The position numbers and the translations under genes were made by a program. From the NCBI GenBank assembly GCA_030151165.1, contig JASLEM010000595.1, forward strand, positions 1-18,293: DNA of 18,293 nucleotides, written 5' to 3'. The stretch comes from Burkholderiaceae bacterium (GTDB taxonomy: Bacteria > Pseudomonadota > Gammaproteobacteria > Burkholderiales > Burkholderiaceae). Positions 5,958 to 10,554 of this stretch are shown one piece after another. The notes under the pieces are model-generated. The model made no database searches and was not told the origin of the DNA. It worked only from the letters and a program-made list of their open reading frames with translations. Position 1 is the stretch's first letter. Each line of letters opens with the position of its first letter.

Positions 5958-7598
5958 CTAGCGGAGAAACAGCTTGTAGACGGGGTTGTCCGTCTCCTCG
6001 ACCCACGGGTAGGCCAGCGACTCCATGAACTTCGCGAGCGCCTTGCTGTCCTTCTTCGGCACGACGAGGCCGACCAGGATGCGGCCGTAGTCGGCGCCCT
6101 GGTTGCGGTAGTGGAACAGGCTGATGTTCCAGTCGGCGTGCATGGAGTTGAGGAAGCGCAGCAGCGCGCCCGGGCGCTCGGGGAACTCGAAGCGGAACAG
6201 GCGCTCGTCGCCGGCGAGCTCGCCGCGACCGCCGACCATGTGACGCACATGTTCCTTCGCCAGCTCGTCGCCGGTGAGGTTGACGGTCGGGAAGCCGTGG
6301 CGGTCGAAGTGGCGCGCGATCTTCTCGGCTTCGTCGCGCTTCGCGATCGTGATGCCGACGAACACGTGCGCCTTCGACGCGTCGTTGATCCGGTAGTTGA
6401 ACTCGGTGACCTGGCGCGGCTGGCCGCCCGGCGGGCCGATCAGCTCGCAGAAGCGGCGGAAGCTGCCGCGCTCCTCGGGCACGGTCACGGCGTAGAGCGC
6501 CTCGCGCTGCTCGCCGAACTCCGCGCGCTCGGCGACGAAGCGCAGGCGATCGAAGTTCATGTTCGCGCCGCAGGTGATCGCGACGAACGTCCGGCCCTTG
6601 AGCTTGTGCGTCTCGACGTACTGCTTGATCGCGGCCACGCCCAGCGCGCCGGCCGGCTCGAGCACGCTGCGCGTGTCCTGGAACACGTCCTTGATCGCGG
6701 CGCAGGCGGCGTCGGTGTCGACGGTGATGTACTCGTCGACCAGCGCGCGTGCCACGCGGAAGGTCTCGGCGCCGACCAGCTTCACGGCGGTGCCGTCGGA
6801 GAACAGGCCGACGTCGGTCAGCGTGACGCGCTTGCCGGCGCGCACCGAGCGCAGCATCGCGTCGGAGTCCTGCGCTTGCACGCCGATGACCTTGATCTCG
6901 GGCCGCAGCGCCTTGATGTAGGCCGCGACGCCGGAGATCAGCCCGCCGCCGCCGATCGCGACGAACACCGCGTCGATCGGGCCCTGGTGCTGGCGCAGCA
7001 CCTCCATCGCGACGGTGCCCTGGCCGGCGATGACGTCGGGGTCGTCGAACGGGTGAACGAAGGTCAGGCCCTCGTCCTTCTCGATCTGCACCGCGTGGGC
7101 GTAGGCGTCGGAGTAGCTGTCGCCGTGCAGGACGACCTCGCCGCCGAGCGCGTGGACGGCGTCGATCTTGACCTTGGGCGTCGTCACCGGCATCACGATG
7201 ACCGCCCGCGCGCCCAGGCGCTTCGCGCTGAGGGCGACGCCCTGCGCGTGGTTGCCGGCCGACGCGCAGATCACGCCGCGCTGCAGCGCCGCGGGCGGCA
7301 GGTTGATCATCTTGTTGTACGCGCCGCGCAGCTTGAAGCTGAAGACGGACTGGGTGTCCTCGCGCTTGAGCAGCACCTGGTTGCCGAGGCGGCGCGACAG
7401 GTTCTTCGCGGGCTCGAGCGGCGTCTCGACGGCGACGTCGTAGACACGCGCCGTCAGGATCCGGCGCAGGTAGGTGCCGGCGATCGCCTGGGCGGTGCGC
7501 GAGAGCGCCGAGACGGGGGCGGGCGCGCTCGCGATGCCGATCGCGGTGACCCCGGAAGCGTCGGAGGGGGTTTCGCGCGGGGGGCGAGCGGCGGCCAT
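5958..7598 (-). CDS. ilvA: Threonine deaminase (threonine ammonia-lyase), biosynthetic, two ACT-like domains
   Basis: A 546-residue PLP enzyme that converts threonine to 2-oxobutanoate and ammonia, the first committed step to isoleucine. The catalytic domain (about 43-360) shows the PLP lysine in SFKLRGAYNKM (Lys89), SAGNHAQG (113-120) and the phosphate-binding glycine loop GGGGL (216-220). Two C-terminal ACT-like regulatory repeats (about 367-440 and 463-535) include FPERPGALLRFL and NISLFHYRNQGADYGRILVG, as expected for the isoleucine-inhibited biosynthetic form. The catabolic TdcB type lacks them. The ATG at 7598 has GGAG 6 bases upstream. This start gives an N-terminal extension of about 40 mostly Ala/Pro/Ser residues before TYLRRILTARVYDV, where usual family members begin, so a later start is possible. 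A predicted small RNA with its own terminator lies upstream on the same strand. Confidence 0.96.
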   Translation of the reverse strand: MAAARPPRETPSDASGVTAIGIASAPAPVSALSRTAQAIAGTYLRRILTARVYDVAVETPLEPAKNLSRRLGNQVLLKREDTQSVFSFKLRGAYNKMINLPPAALQRGVICASAGNHAQGVALSAKRLGARAVIVMPVTTPKVKIDAVHALGGEVVLHGDSYSDAYAHAVQIEKDEGLTFVHPFDDPDVIAGQGTVAMEVLRQHQGPIDAVFVAIGGGGLISGVAAYIKALRPEIKVIGVQAQDSDAMLRSVRAGKRVTLTDVGLFSDGTAVKLVGAETFRVARALVDEYITVDTDAACAAIKDVFQDTRSVLEPAGALGVAAIKQYVETHKLKGRTFVAITCGANMNFDRLRFVAERAEFGEQREALYAVTVPEERGSFRRFCELIGPPGGQPRQVTEFNYRINDASKAHVFVGITIAKRDEAEKIARHFDRHGFPTVNLTGDELAKEHVRHMVGGRGELAGDERLFRFEFPERPGALLRFLNSMHADWNISLFHYRNQGADYGRILVGLVVPKKDSKALAKFMESLAYPWVEETDNPVYKLFLR

Positions 7599-7633
7599 CG
7601 GGGCTCCAGTCGAAGGTTGAGTAGAGCGGGCGG

Positions 7634-7710: not shown

Positions 7711-7743
7711 AGAAAAAGGCCCAAAGCTTCACAGCTTCGGGCC
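7711..7743 (-). terminator. Intrinsic terminator of the small RNA upstream of ilvA
   Basis: Read on the minus strand: an 11-base-pair stem (GGCCCGAAGCT / AGCTTTGGGCC, one G-U pair), a GTGA loop, and then TTTTTCT. This is a textbook Rho-independent terminator. It ends transcription about 115 bases before the ilvA start codon, and no protein gene on this strand ends just upstream of it. Confidence 0.9.
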
Positions 7744-7827
7744 TGAATCCACCAGTTTTAAGGAGGTGGAGGAGACAACTTGCGGTCGGTGCGGAAGAGG
7801 CGTGGCGCCGTGTTCCGAACCAACAAT
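7713..7827 (-). ncRNA. Candidate small RNA with anti-Shine-Dalgarno sequence
   Basis: A predicted transcript of about 115 bases starts near 7827 (promoter at 7834-7862) and ends at the strong terminator at 7713. Its middle carries CUCCUCCACCUCCUU. The last nine bases, CACCUCCUU (plus strand AAGGAGGTG, 7760-7768), match the 3' tail of 16S rRNA that pairs with ribosome-binding sites. The sequence folds as UCCACC / GGUGGA (7765-7770 with 7748-7753) around the loop UCCUUAAAACU, so part of the anti-SD is looped out. A 5' hairpin is also possible (GGTTCGG with CCGACC, enclosing GGCG-CCA-CGCC). From memory, this fits the betaproteobacterial toxic small RNA family, described as carrying anti-SD motifs; I could not run the covariance model. 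Alternative: an ilvA leader or attenuator. Confidence 0.65.
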
Positions 7828-7833
7828 GAAGCC

Positions 7834-7862
7834 AGTCTAGCGCAGCGATTGCTGCGCCGCAA
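7834..7862 (-). promoter_or_regulatory. Sigma70-like promoter of the small RNA
   Basis: On the minus strand, TTGCGG (plus 7857-7862) and TAGACT (plus 7834-7839) are exactly 17 bases apart. The first purine at a suitable distance is the A at 7827. The -35 matches consensus in TTG only. The spacing and the good terminator downstream are what support it. Confidence 0.5.
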
Positions 7863-8047: not shown

Positions 8048-8473
8048 ATGGAATGCACGATCAACTGGCTGCCGGCGAGCGGCATGGCCTTCAGCGCGGA
8101 AACCGGCAGCGGCCACCTGCTGACGATGGACGGCGCGCCGGACGGCGGCGGTCGCAACCTGGCGCCGCGCCCGATGGAGACGTTCCTGGCCGGCGCCGGC
8201 GCCTGCACGGCCTACGACGTGGTGCTGATCCTGCGCCGCGGGCGGCACGACGTCGCGGGCTGCCAGGTCAAGGCCACGGCCGAGCGCGCGAACGAGGATC
8301 CGAAGGTGTTCACGCACCTGCACCTCCATTTTGTCGTCACCGGCCGCGCAATCCCCCCGGCGGCGGTCGAACGCGCCATCACGATGTCGCATGACAAATA
8401 CTGCTCGGCGACCATCATGCTCGGCAAGACGGCCGACATCACGACGAGTTTCGAAGTCGTCGAACCAAGCTGA
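8048..8473 (+). CDS. OsmC-family protein
   Basis: A 141-residue protein of the OsmC/Ohr superfamily. These are small dimeric enzymes, many of which reduce organic hydroperoxides through a cysteine pair. Both family cysteines are present: Cys53 in GAGACTAYDVVLILRR and Cys119 in HDKYCSATIML, with the usual long helix between. The length and the MECTINWLPASGMAF start suit the YhfA-like subgroup rather than Ohr itself, so peroxidase activity is plausible but not shown. The ATG at 8048 has no strong ribosome-binding site (GGGAC at best); upstream in-frame codons from 7955 do not look coding. It converges with coq7, with 41 bases between the stops. No clear promoter is visible upstream. Confidence 0.9.
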   Translation: MECTINWLPASGMAFSAETGSGHLLTMDGAPDGGGRNLAPRPMETFLAGAGACTAYDVVLILRRGRHDVAGCQVKATAERANEDPKVFTHLHLHFVVTGRAIPPAAVERAITMSHDKYCSATIMLGKTADITTSFEVVEPS

Positions 8474-9340: not shown

Positions 9341-9444
9341 AGCCGAAGCTTCCGAACGGTCGCGGTCTCAGGCGTGAGAATAAGAAATCGCCCCCAGCCG
9401 TGGCTGCAATTGGAATCTCTTGTTAACCCTAGGAGATATTCGCA

Positions 9445-10554
9445 ATGAAAAAGTCGCTGCTCGCTCTCGCAGTGCTCACCGCCGTCACCGGCGCCGCATA
9501 CGCTCAATCGTCGGTCACCATCTACGGCAAGGTCGACCTGGGCCTGGTTCTGGATAGCGGCACCCCTGCTGGCAAGTCCCTCCGTCTGTCCTCCGGCGTG
9601 ACCGGCGGCTCGCGCATCGGCTTCAAGGGCGTCGAAGACCTCGGCGGCGGCTACAAGGCCTCGTTCCAGCTGGAAACCGGCTATTGCGCCGACAGCGCCG
9701 CGGGCGACAAGTTCACCGCGACCAGCAACTCCACGGGCAAGACCGTGACGGACAGCGGTGCGAATTTCTGCACGGGTTCCAACAACTTCATGGGCCGCCA
9801 GGCTCACGGCGACCTGACGGGCGCCTTCGGTGGCCTGAGCGCCGGTCGTCAATACAGCCTCGGGTTCAACAACCTGAGCACGATCGATCCGTTCGGCACC
9901 GGTTTCGCTGGCCAGATCAACAACATCATCGATCCGTCGGGCATCCGCCTGAACAACTCGGTGACGTACGTGACGCCGTCGATCGCCGGCCTGACCGGTG
10001 CCGCTGAAATCGCCTTCGGCGAGCAGACCGGCAACTGGGAAGCCAACCGCGAAACCGGCGCTGCCCTGACGTACGTGAACGGCCCGGCCTATGCCGGCTT
10101 CACGTTCTACCAGGTCGACAACTCCAACGGCGTCGGCTCCTCGCGCAAGAACTACACCCTCGGCGGCACGTACGACTTCGGCGTCGTGAAGATCCACGCC
10201 CTGGCGCAGAAGTCGAGCGGCAGCCCGACCGGCGGCAAGAAGCTGGACGTCCTCGACCTGATGGGCGGCGTGACCGTTCCGTTCGCCGGCGGCCAGATCC
10301 TGGCTTCGTACATCCACCACAACGACCGCACCAACGACGCCATCGCCACCAACACGGGCAACGAAGACTCGAGCCAGTTCGGCGTCGGCTACGTCTACCC
10401 GCTGTCGAAGCGCACGTCGATCTACACGGCCTACGCGCGCATCCACAACGACAACAACGACTTCGGCCACAACGCCGGCTTCACCGTGGGCAACGCCACG
10501 GAAAACGGCGTGGGCACCAAGGGCTTCAACCTGGGCGTCGTCCACAACTTCTGA
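9445..10554 (+). CDS. Gram-negative porin (OmpC-like, betaproteobacterial)
   Basis: A 369-residue outer-membrane general porin. It has a signal peptide ([20 protein letters not shown], cleavage before Gln21), followed by the family's opening strand [14 protein letters not shown]. Alternating beta-strand patterns run throughout, with the typical [20 protein letters not shown] and AGRQYSLG. The C-terminal strand FNLGVVHNF ends in phenylalanine, the assembly signal. A strong ribosome-binding site (AGGAGA) sits before the ATG. Codon use is visibly less extreme than in the neighbours and looks like that of a highly expressed gene. Two cysteines (Cys81, Cys109) lie in what should be an early external loop and could form a disulfide. 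It has its own terminator downstream, so it is probably monocistronic. Confidence 0.95.

Follow-up and report, generated by a model that had tools for sequence, protein, structure and literature searches.

A PhaR-type palindrome over the promoter of an RF02278 small RNA gene suggests a link to carbon storage in Burkholderiales

Introduction

Which part of a small RNA does the work, and what switches its gene on, are the questions raised by a locus between ilvA and an osmC-like gene in a Burkholderiaceae bacterium. The locus lies in the window, the whole 18,293-nucleotide stretch of DNA analysed here. An initial annotation, made from the sequence alone, described a small RNA whose hairpin loop presents a copy of the 16S rRNA tail and proposed that it pairs with ribosome-binding sites and inhibits translation broadly. 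The reading favoured here, and considered fairly probable, is that the gene encodes a trans-acting RNA of family RF02278 that would be repressed by PhaR and would limit carbon intake upon polyhydroxybutyrate (PHB) storage. The RNA family is already known; new are the apparent PhaR link of the RF02278 RNA and the phasin 3′ element. For the Burkholderia cenocepacia RNAs, what switches them on is called unknown in the available text of their description (PMC5688073). Among the papers listed in literature searches, none links PhaR to RF02278 and none describes a phasin 3′ UTR RNA.

The small RNA gene and its family

The features of the locus and its neighbours are as follows.

7711..7862, minus strand: small RNA locus, between ilvA and the divergent osmC-like gene
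7857..7862, minus strand: −35 box TTGCGG (direct reading; similar layout in relatives)
7834..7839, minus strand: −10 box TAGACT (direct reading; similar hexamers in relatives)
7849..7862, minus strand: PhaR-type palindrome TTGCGGCGCAGCAA (TGCRNYGCARCA), overlapping the −35 box and running into the spacer
7779..7827, minus strand: hairpin-forming leader (from the fold)
7711..7778, minus strand: supposed mature small RNA of ~67 bases, RF02278 (Rfam and model R1)
7767..7778, minus strand: seed (Site 1) UUGUCUCCUCCA, with the first 8 bases unpaired
7748..7770, minus strand: hairpin 1, stem 7770-7765 with 7753-7748, loop 7764-7754
7760..7768, minus strand: 9-base copy of the 16S tail, CACCTCCTT (RNA: CACCUCCUU; direct reading)
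7717..7744, minus strand: intrinsic terminator stem-loop (12 pairs, 7 GC), then a U tail
5958..7601, minus strand: ilvA (threonine dehydratase), downstream neighbour (Pfam PALP and Thr_dehydrat_C)
8048..8473, plus strand: osmC-like gene, divergent neighbour that mostly accompanies the small RNA (Pfam OsmC, 60.5 bits; synteny)

Direct reading places the promoter pair, the 9-mer, the 6-bp hairpin and the terminator where the initial annotation had put them. The −35 and −10 boxes are separated by 17 bases, and a similar promoter layout recurs in relatives; a strict sigma-70 consensus scan called no promoter at the small RNA. The start site is estimated at ~7827, which would give a primary transcript of ~117 bases, and the leader is perhaps removed by RNase E-type processing, by comparison with Bordetella S17 (PMC11722255). 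Hairpin 1 has a 6-bp stem (UCCACC/GGUGGA) and the loop UCCUUAAAACU. Folding of the 122-base strand yields −52 kcal/mol, where shuffles average −32.8 (z −5.7) and 0 of 200 do as well. The non-coding gene originally proposed is supported. A plasmid BLAST search returned a single match, located within ilvA.

The resemblance to the betaproteobacterial toxic small RNAs, suggested in the initial annotation, is borne out by Rfam. The RF02278 model matches at 7777-7711 over its full length (positions 1-64 of 64) with 51.7 bits, above the gathering score of 50, and an E-value of 5e-8. The traits of the family are present in the window: a 5′ CU-rich element UGUCUCCUCCA, hairpin 1 and an intrinsic terminator. 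A model built in this work (R1) from 54 sequences, the window's own among them, scores the window at 71.8 bits at 7778-7712. The small RNA gene is thus real and a member of RF02278, a known family that includes NcS27 of Burkholderia and S17 of Bordetella. Both have been studied, and the initial view of a poorly known role does not wholly hold. NcS35, considered as a possible further member, was set aside, as the available text of PMC5760752 reports no Rfam match for it.

A betaproteobacterial host, expected for RF02278, is indicated here by gene similarity; the best ilvA relatives, with identity of up to 80%, come under the titles Rubrivivax, Ideonella and Burkholderiales. Relatives were taken as the best 80 of 590 ilvA loci, mostly titled Burkholderiales, a few bearing other titles (Pseudoxanthomonas and Methylotenera, for example). 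Of these 80 loci, 61 contain RF02278, always upstream of ilvA on its strand, and a divergent osmC lies beside the small RNA in most; the terminator, too, is conserved in relatives. Two outcomes that would have spoken against the initial annotation, no covariance-model match and no conservation in relatives, are thus not seen. Model R1 adds four loci (L040, L061, L068 and L073). Among the remaining 15, seven have no osmC visible (L080 ends just upstream of ilvA), and in the other eight osmC is present with no small RNA found by Rfam or model R1. Whole-genome searches give a match in 26 of 27 relatives (25 over the cut-off) and in 0 of 14 controls; across the order, 67 of 100 genomes have a match, 42 of them over the cut-off. 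Two of these order relatives, G034 and G083, hold nine and eight RF02278 matches, some less than 400 bases apart.

The constant position on the same strand upstream of ilvA in 61 of 80 relatives could suggest a cis-acting leader or attenuator, in which hairpin 1 and the terminator govern read-through into ilvA. Such a leader should always lie upstream of the gene that it controls. In Variovorax (L057) and Limnohabitans (L026), the ilvA locus lacks the small RNA, which stands elsewhere beside osmC/coq7 (L090 and L100) with no ilvA within the 3-kb locus. Across 29 loci sampled order-wide, 19 have osmC nearby and one has ilvA. Because of this placement and these counts, the small RNA is best described as accompanying osmC for the most part, and not as an ilvA leader. 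The published relatives are, moreover, free small RNAs, and the leader reading is scarcely credible.

The conserved 5′ seed

The 12-base seed UUGUCUCCUCCA is identical in all 61 Rfam-positive ilvA-linked relatives and begins just before the 9-mer on which the initial annotation had centred. The 9-mer itself, CACCTCCTT, recurs in 1 of the 61, and CACCTCC in 18. In the window it occurs once against 0.04 expected, and 9 of 200 shuffles contain it. Hairpin 1 keeps its pairing throughout the alignment (6 pairs, 100% of 318 cells paired), and its loop differs in sequence and length. The covariation across Burkholderiales that the initial annotation had asked about is seen as two-sided changes at 2 pairs of hairpin 1, and at 11 of 17 predicted pairs overall, mostly in the terminator. 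Seed identity is not absolute beyond the 61 relatives: among the four weaker copies, UUGUCUCCUCUA is seen in at least two (L040 and L073), and order-wide some copies start CGUCUCC or AGUCUCC, or read UGUCUCUUCC.

Since the seed is invariant, the 9-mer rare and the loop variable, the working element is likely the 5′ seed, which corresponds to Site 1 of Bordetella S17, and not the 9-base copy or the loop UCCUUAAAACU. The seed complements (GG)AGGAGACA(A), with the fuller complement GGAGGAGACA(A), in a register other than that of the 16S tail. The complementarity to ribosome-binding sites proposed at first is supported. Alphaproteobacterial 'cuckoo' RNAs carry anti-SD-like CU-rich loops, and they are likened to this RNA by description, not by sequence.

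The alternative, that CACCUCCUU mimics the 16S tail and slows all translation by binding Shine-Dalgarno sequences generally or by competing with the 30S subunit, starts from the 9-mer that does exist in the window. The copy is present as first described, and its presentation is partial: four of its nine bases (CACC) are paired within the stem of hairpin 1, so only UCCUU is exposed in the loop. A mimic would be expected to keep its copy both conserved and exposed, and this one, found in a single relative and nearly half paired, stands next to an invariant element in another register. Modelled as a duplex with the hairpin ignored, pairing reaches −16.0 kcal/mol at the 16S-type site AAGGAGGTGA against −13.9 kcal/mol at the AAGGAGACA site, which favours the mimic. 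So does the published record in part, in which the family is called toxic to Escherichia coli and overexpression of NcS27 slows growth (PMC5688073). Against it, exponential growth of E. coli is described as unimpaired by S17S overexpression (PMC11722255). The mimic is considered highly improbable, and the seed is taken below as the likely working part.

A PhaR-type palindrome at the promoter

Absent from the initial annotation is the palindrome TTGCGGCGCAGCAA that overlaps the −35 box. The full box, TGCRNYGCARCA, lies within 200 nt upstream of the small RNA in 66 of 68 copies (the window, the 61 Rfam matches and six further matches), where Markov shuffles average 0.17 of 68 and never exceed 2. 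By region, it is found upstream in 59 of 61 relatives, downstream in 3 and inside ilvA in none, and in one relative's genome (G002) its background is 8 of 3960 200-nt windows. PhaR is the repressor that senses PHB granules. Its operator consensus in Ralstonia eutropha is given as YTKNTGCRNYGCANMAR (PMC12849132), and the window palindrome, compared by eye, fits it at 16 of 17 positions. The PhaR gene is present in 27 of 27 relatives, from which its presence in the window's source organism is inferred.

As osmC is the divergent neighbour, the palindrome could be an osmC operator that merely lies near the small RNA. Where osmC stays without the small RNA (8 loci), the full box occurs in 0 of 8 and the nine-base core in 2 of 8. 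Conversely, 2 of 4 paralogues away from osmC carry the full box (L108 and L110), and in the window the palindrome overlaps the small RNA's own −35 box. The box thus goes with the small RNA rather than with osmC. The operator reading is extremely unlikely and is rejected here together with the 16S-mimic loop as working part and the ilvA leader. Second small RNA copies without a PhaR-type box, also away from osmC, are found at L107:1561-1501 and L109:1500-1563.

A different reading accepts an RF02278 RNA of the published anti-ribosome-binding-site type and supposes that the palindrome serves some regulator that is not PhaR, or that it is a feature of promoters in general. The nine-base core is common in these genomes (downstream controls 15/61 and 5/29). 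Of the 29 order-wide loci, only 4 have the full box and 16 have the core, compared with 5 of 29 for the core in the downstream control and 1.0 on average in shuffles. The box is also missing from several lineages that bear PhaR; in the wider set described below, 12 of 34 PhaR-bearing genomes have no core near the small RNA. Weighing against this reading are the fit to the published PhaR consensus, the rarity of the full 12-mer elsewhere (8/3960 windows), the recurrence of the core, mostly in pairs, at the phasin promoters in these genomes, and the absence of the core near the small RNA in genomes without PhaR. It is considered unlikely, and control of the small RNA by PhaR through the palindrome is the inference preferred here.

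The contrast between genomes with and without PhaR can be put in numbers. Over the Rfam cut-off, the core lies within 200 nt of the small RNA in 21 of 28 PhaR-bearing genomes and 0 of 13 PhaR-less ones. With weaker matches added the counts are 22 of 34 and 0 of 15; the addition covers 8 of the 25 genomes of this kind, of which three were chosen for a nearby phaR, and G002 is left out. Four changes suffice to explain the presence of PhaR on a RecA tree of 48 genomes. Supported branches yield three independent PhaR-box contrasts, of which a mean of 2.4 agree and 0 oppose, and the association is not significant because the independent contrasts are too few.

Genome-wide, the box pattern occurs 15 times against 1 in G002 and 12 against 1 in G022, and is not enriched in G010 (8 against 9). 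Three of the genome-wide sites, from these same genomes, lie upstream of phasin matches by their coordinates. Weak RF02278-like elements are also seen within ~1 kb of phaR in three order relatives: L269 (G096), L270 (G049) and L271 (G102).

Phasin genes and their 3′ element

The main phasin gene, the classical target of PhaR, has the box core upstream of its Pfam domain at 16 of 16 loci, drawn from 15 genomes, and in 14 of these it is paired, with cores 57-60 bp apart. Upstream of weaker phasin matches it is found in 0 of 5. Three phasins (L221, L222 and L231) have ambiguous start codons, and the longest frame puts some boxes inside the gene.

In 13 of the 16 loci the 3′ UTR, just past the main phasin gene, holds a UGUCUCCU-like element together with a hairpin and a terminator; these are 11 loci with UUGUCUCC or UUGACUCC and two (L229 and L230) recognised by a looser pattern. 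Model R1 detects 12 of the 13 at 21.7 to 35.1 bits. Rfam at gathering scores reports nothing in the phasin 3′ UTRs (9 loci given). In a MAFFT alignment of the elements the terminators are out of register. The pattern TTGTCTCCTYGGNWCC is matched in 3 of 100 order genomes, always adjoining a phasin gene and with 0 reversed matches, so the strict form of the element is not widespread. In the divergent relatives L269 and L270, phasin and terminator flank a GUCUCCUCCU element, and phaR lies next to them. The UUGUCUCCU-hairpin-terminator element of the phasin (phaP) 3′ UTR has its seed in common with RF02278 and is possibly an undescribed small RNA derived from the phaP mRNA. Examples are located at L217:1069-1143, L222:2161-2236 and L226:2081-2153, and ten more loci have one.

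Target-like ribosome-binding sites

Stop-to-stop gene calls in this GC-rich DNA gave poor starts, and the count of 7-mers preceding ATG was made free of gene calls. In 400 kb of G002, AGGAGAC and GGAGACA occur at 4.2 and 3.8 times the base rate before ATG (+3 to +9) and rank 3 and 6 among the 7-mers that pass the count filter. Other 7-mers complementary to the seed are not enriched before ATG in G002 (0.9 to 1.6 times). Complements of the 16S tail from AAGGAGG to GGAGGTG reach 1.4 to 2.0 times in the same genome, and the A-rich side of the 16S-tail complements 4.7 to 6.3 times, the latter from 6 to 8 occurrences.

In a second relative, G022, the pattern AGGAGACA-N3-8-ATG has 53 matches against 0 with the reversed pattern. 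The first 30 of the 53 include 13 uptake genes, 11 catabolic or central-carbon genes, one sigma-54 activator and five other or unknown genes; 16 of the 30 lie on one contig (C4), so not all are independent. The uptake genes encode three TctC, three SBP_bac_1, Peripla_BP_4, Peripla_BP_6, DctP, an ABC permease, an MFS protein and two porins. The sigma-54 activator belongs to the class of the proven target of S17. For comparison, the control ribosome-binding site AAGGAGY has 96 matches against 37 reversed in G022. From its first 30 loci, a set with many false starts, 10 short-frame loci were dropped and 20 proteins scanned; 16 have a Pfam match, of which 3 are transporters, with ribosomal or housekeeping proteins among the rest. 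Uptake alone differs weakly and not significantly between the two sets (13/30 vs 3/20, p 0.06; 13/29 vs 3/16, p 0.11). Uptake plus catabolism gives 24/29 vs 5/16 (p 0.001), with classes assigned by the analyst and false starts in the control. In this one relative, AGGAGACA sites look like markers of mostly uptake and catabolic genes.

Published work agrees with this picture of the targets. In Bordetella pertussis lacking S17, 91-92 genes are described as up, 70 of them matching single-stranded sites of S17, and 32 transporter-related genes or operons are among those up (PMC11722255). Compensatory mutations prove the action of S17 Site 1 on a sigma-54 activator, and two of four further candidates were unaffected (PMC11722255). 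Likewise in accord, growth slows when NcS27 is overexpressed and speeds up when it is silenced (PMC5688073). With published targets selected and AGGAGACA sites in G022 falling mostly on uptake and catabolic genes, broad inhibition of translation, as first proposed, fits poorly.

A longer pattern, GGAGGAGACA-N2-9-ATG, is rare, with 0-3 matches per genome in 11 genomes and 0 in controls, and its match in G007 is the antisense of the small RNA gene itself. No GGAGACA ribosome-binding site occurs within the window. At window positions 9430-9447, a porin gene at 9445 has the ribosome-binding site TAGGAGATATT, which matches the seed complement over six bases (AGGAGA), and is a weak candidate for a local target.

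A proposed circuit and its closest known systems

In the proposed circuit, PhaR would bind the palindrome over the −35 box and repress transcription of the small RNA. When carbon is stored, PhaR would leave the DNA for poly-hydroxybutyrate granules and the RNA would be made. The transcript would then be trimmed to ~67 bases, by RNase E if it behaves as its published relatives do. Its free 5′ element UUGUCUCCU would mask ribosome-binding sites of the AGGAGACA type on mRNAs for uptake and catabolism and repress them, again on the model of published relatives, which also suggest that Hfq probably assists pairing. By physiological logic, the outcome would be less further carbon intake. A wider proposal, favoured only narrowly, is that in many Burkholderiales the response to PHB storage has RF02278 RNAs as its RNA arm. 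Titration of PhaR by granules would free both the small RNA and the mRNA of phasin. At the end of its 3′ UTR, the latter would carry a second, undescribed double-hairpin RNA with the UUGUCUCCU seed, and both RNAs would silence genes of uptake and catabolism at their AGGAGACA-type ribosome-binding sites.

If true, the circuit would parallel that of PhaR and MmgR in alphaproteobacteria and would account for 'toxic' RNAs that rise in glucose medium and biofilm. These RNAs would gain a sensor, the PHB granule, and a purpose, slower carbon intake once the cell is storing. With the second, seed-sharing RNA at the 3′ end of phasin mRNA, a bioplastic pathway that is much engineered would have one more hidden regulator. 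Deletion of phaR or of PHB synthase is predicted to change the small RNA as well as the uptake genes that it targets.

A different RNA family offers a precedent for such a circuit, because PhaR binds the promoter of MmgR, as shown by EMSA (PMC12542648). MmgR/alpha-r8 of Sinorhizobium is an Hfq-dependent small RNA tied to carbon storage, its promoter bound by PhaR/AniA, and SisA, one of SisA-D of Caulobacter, represses TonB-dependent receptors (PMC12542648, PMC8401924, PMC12559287). MmgR/alpha-r8 differ from the RNA described here in family name and bacterial class, and the likeness is functional.

Within RF02278, S17/S17S of B. pertussis has a processed form of 67 nt, with a 27-nt 5′ region conserved in betaproteobacteria (PMC11722255). 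Its promoter is TTGCAT-17-TACTAT, its gene lies beside coq7, and it represses the sigma-54 activator via Site 1 at the ribosome-binding region (PMC11722255). S17 differs in being higher in Bvg+ mode, and no PhaR link is described in the available text (PMC11722255). The B. cenocepacia RNAs ncS03, ncS05, ncS27 and ncS62 share RF02278, the CU-rich 5′ element, hairpin 1 and the terminator, and are also predicted to pair at ribosome-binding sites (PMC5688073, PMC4603805). Unlike the present analysis, the available text on the B. cenocepacia RNAs mentions neither PHB nor phasin and does not use PhaR in this sense. It does report a 'common upstream motif' for three of the four B. cenocepacia double-hairpin RNAs.
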